Origin: Brevibacillus sp.
GTDB taxonomy: Bacteria; Bacillota; Bacilli; Brevibacillales; Brevibacillaceae
DNA: 64,000 nt
Assembly (NCBI GenBank): GCA_017656235.1
Contig: JACDOF010000011.1
Span: 62,001 to 126,000, forward strand
Reading direction: 5' to 3'
Below are positions 57,680 to 62,485 of the stretch, one piece after another. The position numbers were made by a program, and so were the translations under genes. The notes below the pieces were generated by a model. It did not search any database. It worked only from the letters and a program-made list of their open reading frames with translations, and was not told the DNA's origin. Within the stretch, counting starts at the first letter, position 1, and the number at the start of each line of letters is the position of its first letter.

Positions 57680-57724
57680 CCCCCGCTGCACACGAAGTCA
57701 CAGACCGTAATGACACGCAAAGTA

Positions 57725-57763
57725 AACATCCCGTACTTTTCCTGTGAAACGGGATGTTTTTTC
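57725..57763 (+). terminator. terminator after coaX
   Basis: AACATCCCGT/ACGGGATGTT stem, then TTTTTT-like tail. Confidence 0.9.
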
Positions 57764-57832
57764 ATTTATTTTTTGAGCTTGGGCCTTGAAAGGAGCATGA
57801 GTAAGAGGACACCTTCAAGCATTTGGAAGTGA

Positions 57833-57861
57833 TTGACAGATGGGCGCTGAAGATGTATCAT
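57833..57861 (+). promoter_or_regulatory. esterase-gene promoter
   Basis: TTGACA (57833-57838) and TATCAT (57856-57861), 17-base spacer. It leaves a leader of about 215 bases. Confidence 0.65.
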
Positions 57862-57891
57862 TTTCTAGTAACAAAGGAATAATTATCCAAC

Positions 57892-58012
57892 AAGAACAGA
57901 ATGAAGCCCCCTGTTCTTTCCTTTTGGGAATATTTTTTTGAATATTCTGTTATAACAGAAACTTCTGCAATTATTTCTTCCGGAAGCGGAAAGGAGGTGA
58001 TCAGATTGAGTT
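57892..58012 (+). promoter_or_regulatory. structured leader with a 16S-complementary SD
   Basis: Three elements are seen. AAGAACAG/CTGTTCTT (57892-57918) is a hairpin. TTCTGTTATAACAGAA (57945-57960) is a perfect 16-bp palindrome. GAAAGGAGGTGATCA (57989-58003) is complementary to the 3' end of 16S rRNA; eight bases later stands TTG AGT TAG, a two-codon ORF. The true start lies 75 bases further, with its own SD. The extra SD resembles STAB-SD elements that protect mRNA 5' ends (cry3A). Confidence 0.6.
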
Positions 58013-58085
58013 AGGGTTAGGTGCAAGACAGTGCCGGACGAGGTAGGCCAATGAAAACATTTTTGAACAAGGGAGGGAGAATTCT

Positions 58086-59633
58086 TTGCTGAAGAGAAGT
58101 GCCGTCCTGCTGTTAGCTGTTTTATTCGCGTTGGTACTTGCTTCTTCTTCTGTATTCGCAGGCTCTATACGCATCGTTATCGGCACACCCGGGGTACCGG
58201 GGACCTGGTATGTTGGGGAAGCGCCTGCCAATCCCGATCCTGAAAAACCTGTGATCCTGTTTGTTCAGGGACTTAATTCGGCCGCCAGCATCTGGTGGCA
58301 AAACAGCGATATGTATGAAACCGCTTACGAGGCAGGGTACCAGACAGCATTTGTTGAGCTGTATGACTCCGCCGGCACCCCCAAAAACATGTGGAACAAC
58401 GGGCGCCTTTTGGCGGAGTTGATCAAGAAGGTGAGTGACTACTTCCAGAAGGAGATCGTGATTGTGGCCCACAGCAAGGGTGGGCTGGACACGCAAGCGG
58501 CGCTGATTCACTACGGGGCCCATCCCTATGTCTCCCGTGTCATTACGCTGGGCAGCCCGCATTATGGTTCAGAAGTGGCCGATCTCGCCTTCAGCTCATG
58601 GGCGGGGTGGATCGCGGATTTGATTGGTCAACAAAATGAAGCTACGTATGTGCTGCAAACAGGTTATATGAATTACTTCCGCGAGATTACCGATACCCAT
58701 GAAAACAGTGAGCGCAATACCTATTACACACTGGCTGGAGACGCTTGGTATTCTTCCTTGTTCAATCCTTTGTTTATCGGGGGACTGTACTTGTCCGCCT
58801 ATGGCGATAACGACGGGCTGGTAACGGTGAGGAGCGCTCGTTTGCCCTACGCCAGCATGATTCAGGTCGGTCCGTGGAACCATCAGGAAATCACGGAGGG
58901 AAGCAAGACCTTTTCCCTGTTTGAGTCTTACCTGACCCAGGCGGAAACGGTTGGATTCGCTTCGGCCGATCACATGAGCAGACGATCGAACGAGGAGACG
59001 GAGCTAAGCGATGTGTTTATCCGCGGCGGGCAGTTCTCGGGTGAGACCAGCGAATCGTTTTTGGTGGAAAACGACGTCAAGGAAGTGACCATTGACTGGA
59101 TCAGTGCACATCCTGCAGAGGAGATCGAACTGATCTCACCTGACGGGAAGCGAACGCTGGCCAATGTGAAGACATTCCAGGATGATCAGATGTTTAAAGG
59201 TGCCTGGCATCATGTGATGAATGTGAAAAATCCGGATCAGGGAACATGGCACATGCACGTGACTTCCGAAGAGAAGGACGAGGATGCGTATCTGATGACC
59301 GTTCACTACGACTCCAAGCTGTCCGAAAAGTTTGGGATTTCCCTTCAAAAGAACGGCTTTAGCCTTAACACCGACAAGGAGTTTGTCAACCAAAAACAAG
59401 TGAATGCCCAATATCGGATAGAGTATATCCCCGAGAAACAGCGGGGAACATTCGGGCCAAGAACAAGCATGCGGGGCAGCAGCGAGGATGCGTCCTCCCT
59501 CTCTTTTGAGGAAGCGGGCATTTACAACGTTACCATCGACATTCAGGGGGAGACGGCCGAGGGTATTCCTTTTGCGAGAACGATCGTGGAAAATGTGTAT
59601 GTAGATGAGAAAGGAAACAGGTACCAAAAGTGA
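58086..59633 (+). CDS. secreted alpha/beta-hydrolase (lipase/esterase-like)
   Basis: This exported serine hydrolase is 515 aa. The signal peptide is about 1-25 (cleavage after SSVFA). The hydrolase domain (about 50-290) carries the nucleophile elbow AHSKGG (S130), Asp in YGDNDGLVTV (D243 or D241) and His in WNHQEI (H266), as in Bacillus-type secreted lipases. Residues 320-515 look like beta-sandwich domains, perhaps for binding a surface or substrate. The TTG start at 58086 has GGGAGGG eight bases before. It is monocistronic and ends at a terminator. The substrate is unknown. Confidence 0.85.
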   Translation: MLKRSAVLLLAVLFALVLASSSVFAGSIRIVIGTPGVPGTWYVGEAPANPDPEKPVILFVQGLNSAASIWWQNSDMYETAYEAGYQTAFVELYDSAGTPKNMWNNGRLLAELIKKVSDYFQKEIVIVAHSKGGLDTQAALIHYGAHPYVSRVITLGSPHYGSEVADLAFSSWAGWIADLIGQQNEATYVLQTGYMNYFREITDTHENSERNTYYTLAGDAWYSSLFNPLFIGGLYLSAYGDNDGLVTVRSARLPYASMIQVGPWNHQEITEGSKTFSLFESYLTQAETVGFASADHMSRRSNEETELSDVFIRGGQFSGETSESFLVENDVKEVTIDWISAHPAEEIELISPDGKRTLANVKTFQDDQMFKGAWHHVMNVKNPDQGTWHMHVTSEEKDEDAYLMTVHYDSKLSEKFGISLQKNGFSLNTDKEFVNQKQVNAQYRIEYIPEKQRGTFGPRTSMRGSSEDASSLSFEEAGIYNVTIDIQGETAEGIPFARTIVENVYVDEKGNRYQK

Positions 59634-59704
59634 GAGGACGACAACCAGGGTCGGCTGCGGTGCAGCGGAGTCACAGGATGGATCCTCAGATGTGACGATC
59701 AAAC

Positions 59705-59728
59705 GAGCCTGACAAGGCTCTTTTTTTT
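59705..59728 (+). terminator. terminator after the esterase gene
   Basis: GAGCCT/AGGCTC stem, GACA loop, eight T. Confidence 0.85.
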
Positions 59729-59785
59729 GTCCCAGTCTGCTGATATATCCTACCGGTAAAAGCAGGACGAGAGGGGGATGGGAAT

Positions 59786-60526
59786 TTGATTCACCTGCCT
59801 GCAATCAATCCGCTGCGCACCGCCGCATTGCTGGTGCTGGCCGGAACCATATCGTTCGTTACCTTTCAGATTCTCCAACCGCAGACAATTGCGTACGTGC
59901 AGGTGCGGGAAGGGGTGACGCTGGAAGCGGGACAAGTCCTGCAGTGGGAGCATGTTGACACGGGCGAGCTTACATTTGGCGGAACAATGATGAAAGACAG
60001 CGTGCTGCCGCCGGGACTGATTGCCTGGACTGAAATCGAGACGTATCTGGGGGTACCGCTCAGTCGGCCCATCCACGGACCATCACCGCTGTTAACCAGT
60101 GACTTTGAGCGGAATGGTGCATCTGCGCTTGATCTGCCCGCTGACGAAACGCTAAGCCTGATGAGCATCCCTGTGGACAATGTGAGCGGAGTTACACCGG
60201 AATTGTCGAGGGGTGACAGGGTTCATCTTTACGCTTCCTTTGAGGATGAGCAGGGTGCCCACTCCGGGATGCTGTTTCGCGATATGCCGGTGGTTGCCGT
60301 TCAGCGCGAGTTGGACGGCTCCGTAACAGAGTTGGTTGCCGTGTCAATCGCCTTGACCATGGAAGAGGCTGTGCTGTTGACGCATGCACTGCATTACGGA
60401 AAGATTCGGCTCAGCAAGGCCCTGGTTCAGGAAAAGGCACACCCCGGCATTGGCGACAGGACATTTGCCAATGCCTTGATGAAGACGCAAAAACGCTGGG
60501 AAAGAAAGGAGGCAGAAGCACATTGA
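59786..60526 (+). CDS. SAF-domain protein, CpaB/RcpC-like pilus assembly factor
   Basis: This is a likely Tad/Flp pilus assembly protein. One TM helix (about 10-30) is followed by an SAF-like beta domain (about 38-110; AYVQVREGVTLEAGQVLQWE, GVPLSRPIHGPSPLL) and an RcpC-like part (PVDNVSGVTPELSRGDRVHL). Length is 246 aa. TTG 59786 has GAGGGGG eight bases before. Its stop overlaps the CpaE-like gene start (TTGA), so they are coupled. Confidence 0.8.
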   Translation: MIHLPAINPLRTAALLVLAGTISFVTFQILQPQTIAYVQVREGVTLEAGQVLQWEHVDTGELTFGGTMMKDSVLPPGLIAWTEIETYLGVPLSRPIHGPSPLLTSDFERNGASALDLPADETLSLMSIPVDNVSGVTPELSRGDRVHLYASFEDEQGAHSGMLFRDMPVVAVQRELDGSVTELVAVSIALTMEEAVLLTHALHYGKIRLSKALVQEKAHPGIGDRTFANALMKTQKRWERKEAEAH

Positions 60527-61827
60527 ACAAACAACGAGGTCGTTTGCTGATCATCGATCAGGACCTGGTGCTTATCGGCAGCCTGCCTGACATGGAAATA
60601 GGTTTTCTTTGTCAGCAGCTCCGATTCTATTATCCGCAAATAGCCTGCATCGCCTCCTGTTCGGTTCGTGAATCGCACTGGGAGCCGTTTTTGCGCAATT
60701 TGGGGGTGTGGGTGATCAGCAAGCCGGTTCAGATTGCTCAATTGGAACTGCTGGCGGTCCAGTTGGTCCGGTATCACGAGTCGCGCACAGAGTATCCATC
60801 TTCGCCTGCACCGCCATCTGCGCAATCTTTTGCCGGACTATGGCCAGGTGCCGGCCAGGTTCAGCCAATCCTCCAGCCCCCTCAACCACCTCGCTCTCCC
60901 AGGGAGAAACACTTGATCACCGTTTACGGTCCCAAAGGAGGCGTCGGCAAGACGTTTTTGTCACGTGAATTGGCCATTTTTTTTACCCGGCAAAAAAAGG
61001 ACGGGCAGCGGCTCAAGGTACTGGCCGTGGACTTTAACCTCGACCTGGGAACAATTGCCACCTCACTCAACCTGGCACGCCGCCCCAATCTGTACACCTG
61101 GGTTCAGGCCATAGACGAACAACTGGCTGAACTGGTGCGTCAGGAGGGGCGGGATCCGGAGGAGGTAGCTCACGCTGAGTGGCAGGAGTTCAGCGCTCTT
61201 TTGCGCTTATCTCCAGAAGAGGTGGAGCGGTACGTGGTGATCCATCCGGAATCGGGTCTGCACGTATTAACCTCGCCGCAAGACATTCGGCACAGTTTTG
61301 AGATAAAGGACTACCACTTGTACATCATCCTTGAAACCCTGAAACAAAGCGAGTACGACGTGATCTTGATCGATACGGCGCCCGATACGACAGACGCTAC
61401 GATTCAGGCTCTGTTCTTTGCCCAAAAGGTGGTACTTGTGGGCAATCACGTCGTCGATGCGATTGAAAACATTCAGCGCATGTTGAAGCTGTTGCGGGAG
61501 GCTGACTATCCGGAAGAGCGGATTGAGGTATGCATGAATCGGCTGCAGCGCAAGGAAATGTTTACGCTTGAAGAGATTCGCGCCTTCTTTCAGCTTCCTC
61601 CGGGAAAACTTTTGTACACCATTCCAGACGACGCAGAGGTGAAACGCTCGGTCAACACGGGGGTACCCCTGATGCTTGCAGCCGGCCGATCGCAGGCGAG
61701 AGAAGCGGTGGCCTCATTGGGCAGGGTGCTGATACCCTCTCTTTTTGAAGAGAGCGAAGACGAGGTTCAGTCAAAGACACGGAAAGAAAAAGAACGTTCC
61801 TTCTGGTATAAATGGTTTCATAGGTAA
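60523..61827 (+). CDS. CpaE/TadZ-like MinD-family ATPase
   Basis: This is a pilus-localization ATPase. The N-terminal part (about 1-85) resembles a receiver-type domain, a Pro-rich linker (92-125) follows, then a deviant Walker A GPKGGVGKT at 136-144, Walker A' VDFNLDLGT and the switch IDTAPDTTDATI. Length is 434 aa. TTG 60523 has GGAGG ten bases upstream and overlaps the previous stop. It is the last apparently intact gene of the pilus cluster. Confidence 0.85.
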   Translation: MNKQRGRLLIIDQDLVLIGSLPDMEIGFLCQQLRFYYPQIACIASCSVRESHWEPFLRNLGVWVISKPVQIAQLELLAVQLVRYHESRTEYPSSPAPPSAQSFAGLWPGAGQVQPILQPPQPPRSPREKHLITVYGPKGGVGKTFLSRELAIFFTRQKKDGQRLKVLAVDFNLDLGTIATSLNLARRPNLYTWVQAIDEQLAELVRQEGRDPEEVAHAEWQEFSALLRLSPEEVERYVVIHPESGLHVLTSPQDIRHSFEIKDYHLYIILETLKQSEYDVILIDTAPDTTDATIQALFFAQKVVLVGNHVVDAIENIQRMLKLLREADYPEERIEVCMNRLQRKEMFTLEEIRAFFQLPPGKLLYTIPDDAEVKRSVNTGVPLMLAAGRSQAREAVASLGRVLIPSLFEESEDEVQSKTRKEKERSFWYKWFHR

Positions 61828-61837
61828 GGGGGATTCT

Positions 61838-62485
61838 ATGACATTTGACCGCAAAAGCTTGCTCGGTTTGCATTCGTCTGGCCGCACCACGATTTCAGAC
61901 ATTCGACGATCGGCGGGGGAGGTGACACGTGCCCAGCAGCAGAAGGCTGACTGGATGCAGCATGGTGCGGAGACGGGTGAAGAAGCACAGTGGAAACTGA
62001 CCAAAGAGCAAGTTGCATCCATCAAGGCGCAGATTGTAGAAAAATACGGGCGGAAGCTGTGGGAAAAGAAGCACAACGATACTTTTTTGAAGGATGTTGC
62101 TGGCGATCTGCGGACACTTTTGGAAATGGACACAACGCTGCCCAGCCGTCAGTTGGACGTAGAAGTCAAGCGGCTGCTGCAGGAATTGGTCGGGTGGGGG
62201 GCGCTTGATAGCCTGCTGAACGACCCGGATATTACGGAAATCCTTGTTCACCGTTTTGACAATGTGGTGGTGGAAAGAAAGAGCACGGGGCGGATTGAAC
62301 GGCTCCAGGAGAAGATATTTCGTGATGAAGAGCAGCTGCTTCGACTGATTGAACACATTGCTGCAACGATGGGGAGGGAGTTTAACGAGACCAAGGCGGA
62401 AATGCATACGCAGCTCCCCGACGGTTCACGTGTGGCCGCCGTCCATCGCTCTATTTCTCTGGTATGCGGCGTTCAAAACAAGTGA
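61838..62485 (+). pseudogene. truncated CpaF/TadA-like secretion ATPase
   Basis: Residues 1-208 match the N-terminal part of CpaF ATPases: the helical start, then LLNDPDITEILVHRFDNVVV, LIEHIAATMGREFNE and LPDGSRVAAVH. The reading then leaves the family at about 62460 and stops after VCGVQNK, before Walker A, Asp and Walker B boxes. It therefore cannot act as an ATPase. Family length is about 450 aa. ATG 61838 has AAGGGGG five bases upstream. The break joins it to a fragment of another gene, so a deletion is likely. Confidence 0.85.

Follow-up and report, generated by a model that had tools for sequence, protein, structure and literature searches.

A long 16S rRNA complement in the leader of a Brevibacillus esterase gene is a candidate STAB-SD element

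Introduction

Why would the leader of an esterase gene carry a Shine–Dalgarno (SD) sequence of exceptional strength that drives no gene? The question is raised by a stretch of Brevibacillus DNA of 64,000 nt (hereafter the window), in which positions 57989-58003 read directly as GAAAGGAGGTGATCA. The first 14 of these bases (GAAAGGAGGTGATC, 57989..58002, + strand), referred to here as SD1, are a Watson–Crick complement of the 3′ end of 16S rRNA and a candidate STAB-SD. Such elements are best known from cry genes and are defined at the RNA level, by a processed mRNA 5′ end just above the SD and by an mRNA half-life that depends on 30S binding there.

Published work offers several roles for strong SDs and very short open reading frames (ORFs) in mRNA leaders. 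The STAB-SD of cry3A binds the 30S subunit and blocks RNase J1 (PMC4113751), and in Bacilli an mRNA can be stabilised by a strong SD even where a start codon is missing (PMC3997798). In E. coli, initiation is poorer at SDs longer than six nt (PMC2176067). Two-codon minigenes in the leader control axe-txe and EHEC LEE1, and dipeptide ORFs are found upstream of B. subtilis ycbK (PMC8708949).

SD1 and its pairing with 16S rRNA

No recognisable 16S gene was found in the assembly to which the window belongs (G000). The 3′ tail of the genus, the complement of TAGAAAGGAGGTGATCC, was taken from the 16S genes of two other genomes, G001 and G002, where these genes were located as antisense matches to the SD1 motif. 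The first-pass annotation had described pairing over the whole length of the motif, which is correct for the 14 bases 57989-58002 and fails at the fifteenth, the A at 58003; on the other side, the G at 57988 could give one extra G-U pair.

SD1 is present, unusual and beyond chance. The 13-mer AAAGGAGGTGATC has a single exact copy in its own 3.6-Mb genome, both strands included, and the reversed-pattern control has none; with at most one mismatch, 21 matches are obtained against 5 for the reversed pattern. Complements to the 16S tail were counted over 2.06 Mb of G000 and 0.4 Mb of G001, and SD1 is the longest and the sole 14-nt complement in the 2.06 Mb measured, with one site of 13 nt and a few of 12 nt behind it. 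The SD1/16S duplex has an energy of -27.3 kcal/mol, which was attained by 0 of 500 shuffled leaders.

An antisense 16S fragment can be ruled out as the origin of SD1, as the similarity to 16S ends with the 14 bases. A search for a copy of SD1 in plasmids gave no match, and no paralogous leader was found elsewhere in the genome, where only the upstream terminator repeats recur. The second-longest complement, the 13-nt GAAAGGAGGTGAT (locus L094 near 1501; G000:C12:13954-13966, minus strand), opens a 19-codon ATG ORF, possibly a leader peptide or small protein.

The esterase transcription unit

The gene below SD1 (58086..59633, + strand) encodes, by homology, an esterase-like alpha/beta hydrolase that looks secreted and has a PGAP1-like match. 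Its TTG start at 58086 aligns with the ATG of the ortholog in G001 and lies 83 nt below the end of SD1, a distance first annotated as 75 bases. The gene has an SD of its own, AGGGAGGGAG (58070..58079, + strand), aligned with GAGGGAGGAG of G001, and an intrinsic terminator, GAGCC-TGACAA-GGCTC-T8, can be read below it (59705..59728, + strand).

Upstream, coaX is the last gene of a nad-coaX group and is followed by a hairpin that appears to be the intrinsic terminator of that unit (57724..57766, + strand), consisting of the inverted repeat AAACATCCCGT/ACGGGATGTTT and a T run, with a fold z of -3.0. A predicted sigma-A-type promoter, TTGACA-17-TATCAT (57833..57861, + strand), comes next; it agrees with the consensus at 11 of 12 positions, and its TTGAC box aligns with G001. 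From this promoter transcription would be expected to start near 57868, which, together with the start codon and the G001 alignment, gives a predicted esterase leader of about 218 nt (57868..58085, + strand). The esterase is predicted to form a single-gene transcription unit, and SD1 lies on the sense strand of this promoter-to-terminator unit. A known riboswitch or other Rfam RNA in the leader was ruled out by an Rfam search, in which the window gave no gathering-level match and the leader nothing credible at E up to 5.

Other features of the region deserve mention in their own right. The terminator-like hairpin, CAAAGTAAACATCCCGT-CCCACTTTTCCTGTGAA-ACGGGATGTTTTTTCAT, belongs to a repeated element found at 57709-57785 of the window and at about ten other places in G000; the copies are mostly 85-95% identical, loop included, and mostly intergenic, and weaker relatives occur in G001 and G002. 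Just past the predicted transcription start, positions 57877-57889 read GGAATAATTATCC, a stretch that is kept in G001 as GGAGTAATTATCC and resembles half of a Fur-family box and could be an operator of the esterase gene. Tad/Flp pilus genes lie directly below the secreted esterase in both G000 and G001 (58086-62485 of the window), and the window esterase has its own terminator.

Conservation of the leader

G001 holds the only close ortholog of the esterase (72% identity). The locus is syntenic there, with the nad genes and coaX above, two extra genes between, and cpaB-like and further tad-type genes below. Promoter and leader align to G001 with a score of 6, against -83 +/- 14 for shuffles, and conservation is highest at the -35 box, GGA.TAATTATCC past the predicted transcription start, TTTGAATATTC and the gene's own SD. 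By this alignment the leader is detectably conserved around SD1, which suggests that it is under constraint.

For SD1 itself, the comparison rests on one ortholog. Of four gap settings, three place SD1 on GAGGGGGTG of G001, and two of these give exact register. The G001 site is SD-like and weaker (-14.6 vs about -27 kcal/mol), and the G001 leader has a stronger 16S match elsewhere. Outside the genus, no convincing counterpart was seen among about 25 more distant ortholog leaders, of which one (L037) has a site of -20.3 kcal/mol 182 nt upstream.

Strong SDs with no start codon in other leaders

The same kind of site was sought in 623 leaders from 2.06 Mb. Their limits come from a crude longest-ORF script, and some are misjudged, such as that of rny, which has a non-canonical start. 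SDs of at least 10 nt that open no 30-codon ORF were counted on both strands of these stretches: the sense strand has 4 and the antisense strand 0, a small count in which one of the 4 is 322 nt away from the gene it precedes. Complements of 7-9 nt are about equally frequent on the two strands of those leaders, with no enrichment on the sense strand.

Two of these leaders resemble that of the esterase. The first belongs to a gene for a dctP-like binding protein, whose likely ATG is 84 nt below a 10-nt SD that has no start codon in range. The block GAGAAGGAGGTG is the same in G000 and G002 and reads GAGGAAGGAGGCG in G001, amid a spacer that has otherwise diverged strongly; in none of the three genomes of the genus does a start codon follow at workable spacing. 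In the second, a 10-nt SD lies 73 nt above a ketoreductase, again with no start codon in range; this SD, GGGAGGTGAT, is shared by G000 and G001, as is more of that leader. Both sites were picked by length in one genome and afterwards looked up in the others, so their conservation counts as independent evidence, in small numbers.

The dctP SD, GAG(G)AAGGAGG (loci G000:C1 about 74914-75010, L175:1370-1506 and L178:1281-1375), comes right after the preceding transporter gene and may confer stability on the segment of the operon mRNA that encodes the binding protein. The dctP of G001 (L178) appears broken, as the open frame of the match has only 51 codons.

These data bear on the leading rival explanation, in which SD1 does nothing in the leader today and is either what remains of the ribosome-binding site of a vanished small ORF or a run of purines that arose by chance. 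The weaker site in the single ortholog and the roughly 25 distant orthologs that lack SD1 would fit such a history, as would the lack of conservation of the two-codon ORF described below and the chance SDs with tiny ORFs known elsewhere, both in other genomes and at non-genic SDs. However, a 14-nt complement that is unique in its genome should decay quickly if neutral, the surrounding leader appears constrained, and comparable SDs with no start codon are conserved in two other leaders. We regard a relic or neutral sequence as less likely than the reading favoured below, though it keeps more weight than any other rival.

The two-codon ORF

SD1 could still serve translation of its own, for 8 nt separate its GGAGG from a TTG that begins the two-codon ORF TTG AGT TAG (58006..58014, + strand). 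SD, start, one sense codon and stop are all present, and the first-pass annotation was right about their spacing. On this explanation the ORF would be translated, with termination and possible reinitiation, and repeated initiation at SD1 would protect the mRNA or feed ribosomes to the gene or withhold them from it. The workable spacing and the precedents of axe-txe, EHEC LEE1 and ycbK speak for it. Against it, the aligned site of G001, the sole syntenic ortholog compared, has no start codon behind it, where conservation would be expected if translation mattered; the TAG lies 71 nt from the esterase start, in a different frame, compared with 15 nt in axe-txe; and TTG is a weak start. The first of these objections also tells against ribosome parking on a dipeptide ORF, and the second against translation coupling, both of which had been suggested for this site. 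A translational relay could be drawn through an in-frame GTG at 58021 or the ATG at 58051 to the overlapping TGA at 58090, the latter ATG opening a 13-codon ORF (MKTFLNKGGRILC, 58051..58092, + strand) that overlaps the esterase start. Such a relay is possible on paper, and neither it nor the 13-codon ORF is seen in G001. Altogether, we consider a functional minigene improbable.

Tiny ORFs also follow several strong SDs outside genes, so the presence of one here is no more than would be expected by chance. For example, a motif identical to SD1 in two genomes of the family (L076 and L078; GAAAGGAGGTGATC..TTG..TAGGGT) likewise opens a tiny ORF, of 3 codons. These sites were rejected as relatives of SD1, since they run antisense inside an ftsW-like coding sequence and are a matter of chance. 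As the aligned SD of G001 has no start codon after it, TTG AGT TAG is probably incidental.

Predicted folding of the leader

A hairpin and a palindrome noted at first pass above SD1 are both confirmed by reading: the inverted repeat AAGAACAG/CTGTTCTT (57892..57918, + strand) and the perfect 16-nt palindrome TTCTGTTATAACAGAA (57945..57960). Neither is kept in the G001 sequence. A further predicted hairpin (57964..58005, + strand) holds SD1 in its 3′ arm, with a fold of -14.9 kcal/mol for 57962-58014 that is mildly unusual in stability (z = -1.8).

In the full leader SD1 is predicted to be about 80% paired (mean unpaired 0.19). Removal of the 5′ arm raises the predicted unpaired value to 0.44, or 0.57 at 55 C. 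The predicted pairing in the full leader is a warning against constitutive binding of the 30S subunit, and the predicted opening after loss of the 5′ arm would be compatible with exposure of SD1 by trimming.

A further possibility is a regulatory fold, thermometer-like or protein-bound, in which hairpins of the upper leader compete and SD1 is gated, its opening altering expression of the gene. This reading can draw on the G-U-rich hairpin that mostly pairs SD1, on 5′ hairpins that are mutually exclusive and on a gradual predicted opening with temperature, but it is quite doubtful given a z of only -1.8, a predicted accessibility that goes from 0.18 at 30 C to just 0.29 at 60 C, an accessibility of the gene's own SD that stays constant with temperature, hairpin sequences that are not conserved and the lack of an Rfam match.

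A possible docking site for the 30S subunit

The reading that we favour, while putting it at somewhat less than an even chance, is that SD1 is a STAB-SD-like docking site at which a 30S subunit blocks 5′-3′ decay. It is preferred because SD1 stands in a leader, is exceptionally strong and drives no gene, because its position is like that in cry3A, and because SDs with no start codon in two other leaders are kept in relatives. The published mechanism in cry3A and other Bacilli also counts in its favour. So do the nuclease genes of the genome, which encodes two full-length RNase J-family matches over the cut-off and RNase Y.

In outline, transcription of the esterase gene would begin near 57868 and give a leader of about 218 nt. 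An endonuclease, for which RNase Y is the candidate, would cut in the AU-rich upper leader, and RNase J1 would then trim 5′-3′, strip the arm that hides SD1 and run into a 30S subunit held by 14 base pairs. Trimming would halt there, and what is left, a truncated mRNA that keeps the gene and its real SD, would be stabilised; any initiation at TTG AGT TAG would be incidental. We infer each of these steps, that is transcription, cutting, 30S binding and stabilisation.

A STAB-SD had already been proposed at first pass, and of the ideas offered then it is the best supported. It is plausible and somewhat strengthened by a strong SD that lies in the leader with no gene to drive and by the RNases encoded; the predicted fold that hides SD1 counts against it.

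A more specific extension can be imagined, in which the hairpin locks SD1 until a 5′ cut frees it, so that processing switches on protection, and in which SD1 is one of a genus-wide set of SDs with no start codon (esterase, dctP and ketoreductase) that set mRNA stability. This combination is a long shot. If the STAB-SD interpretation is true, a Brevibacillus-like genus stabilises ordinary cellular mRNAs, those of a secreted esterase, a transporter binding protein and a ketoreductase, by means of strong leader SDs that serve no gene. Further cases would then be expected from genome searches for a long 16S complement that lies in a leader with no gene in range and is kept in relatives, and such leaders could serve in Bacillus-type expression hosts to stabilise mRNAs from the 5′ end.

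One of the decay genes has a feature of its own. In rny (loci L155 near 1490-1510, at G000:C1:471012-471045; L157; L156), the apparent start codon behind a strong SD, AAGGAGGTGA, is ATA in G000 as well as in G001 and ATC in G002; ATG stands at this position in several other genomes of the family. By analogy with infC, which is autoregulated through its start codon, the conserved non-canonical start suggests start-codon-based autoregulation of rny.

Comparison with known systems

The minigene mg2 of axe-txe shares with the esterase leader an SD and a two-codon ORF above a gene (PMC8708949). The effect of mg2 depends on active translation, and its stop lies within 15 nt of the gene, whereas the ORF behind SD1 ends 71 nt away in another frame and its start is not conserved. 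The six-codon mini-ORF of EHEC LEE4 is similar in its strong SD and long AU-rich leader, and there the mRNA is stabilised by occupancy of the SD and not by the peptide (PMC8708949). However, LEE4 belongs to an RNase E organism and has six codons, as opposed to two codons in an organism with RNases J and Y. In the 5′ maturation of B. subtilis hbs (PMC3997798, PMC5419742), as proposed here, an SD-bound ribosome would halt 5′-3′ trimming by RNase J1. The protecting ribosome of hbs sits at the gene's own start site, whereas in the esterase leader it would sit at an extra SD upstream.

The closest counterpart is the STAB-SD of Bacillus thuringiensis cry3A (PMC4113751), likewise an SD-like 16S complement in a 5′ untranslated region that is not used to translate the gene. 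It lies roughly 100 nt above its gene, about where SD1 sits, in a host that likewise has RNase J. SD1 differs in its longer complement (14 nt), in the workable start codon next to it and in being predicted to lie hidden in a hairpin, and it is known from sequence, whereas cry3A has a mapped processed 5′ end. On this comparison, SD1 is best described as a candidate further STAB-SD and not as a new kind of element.
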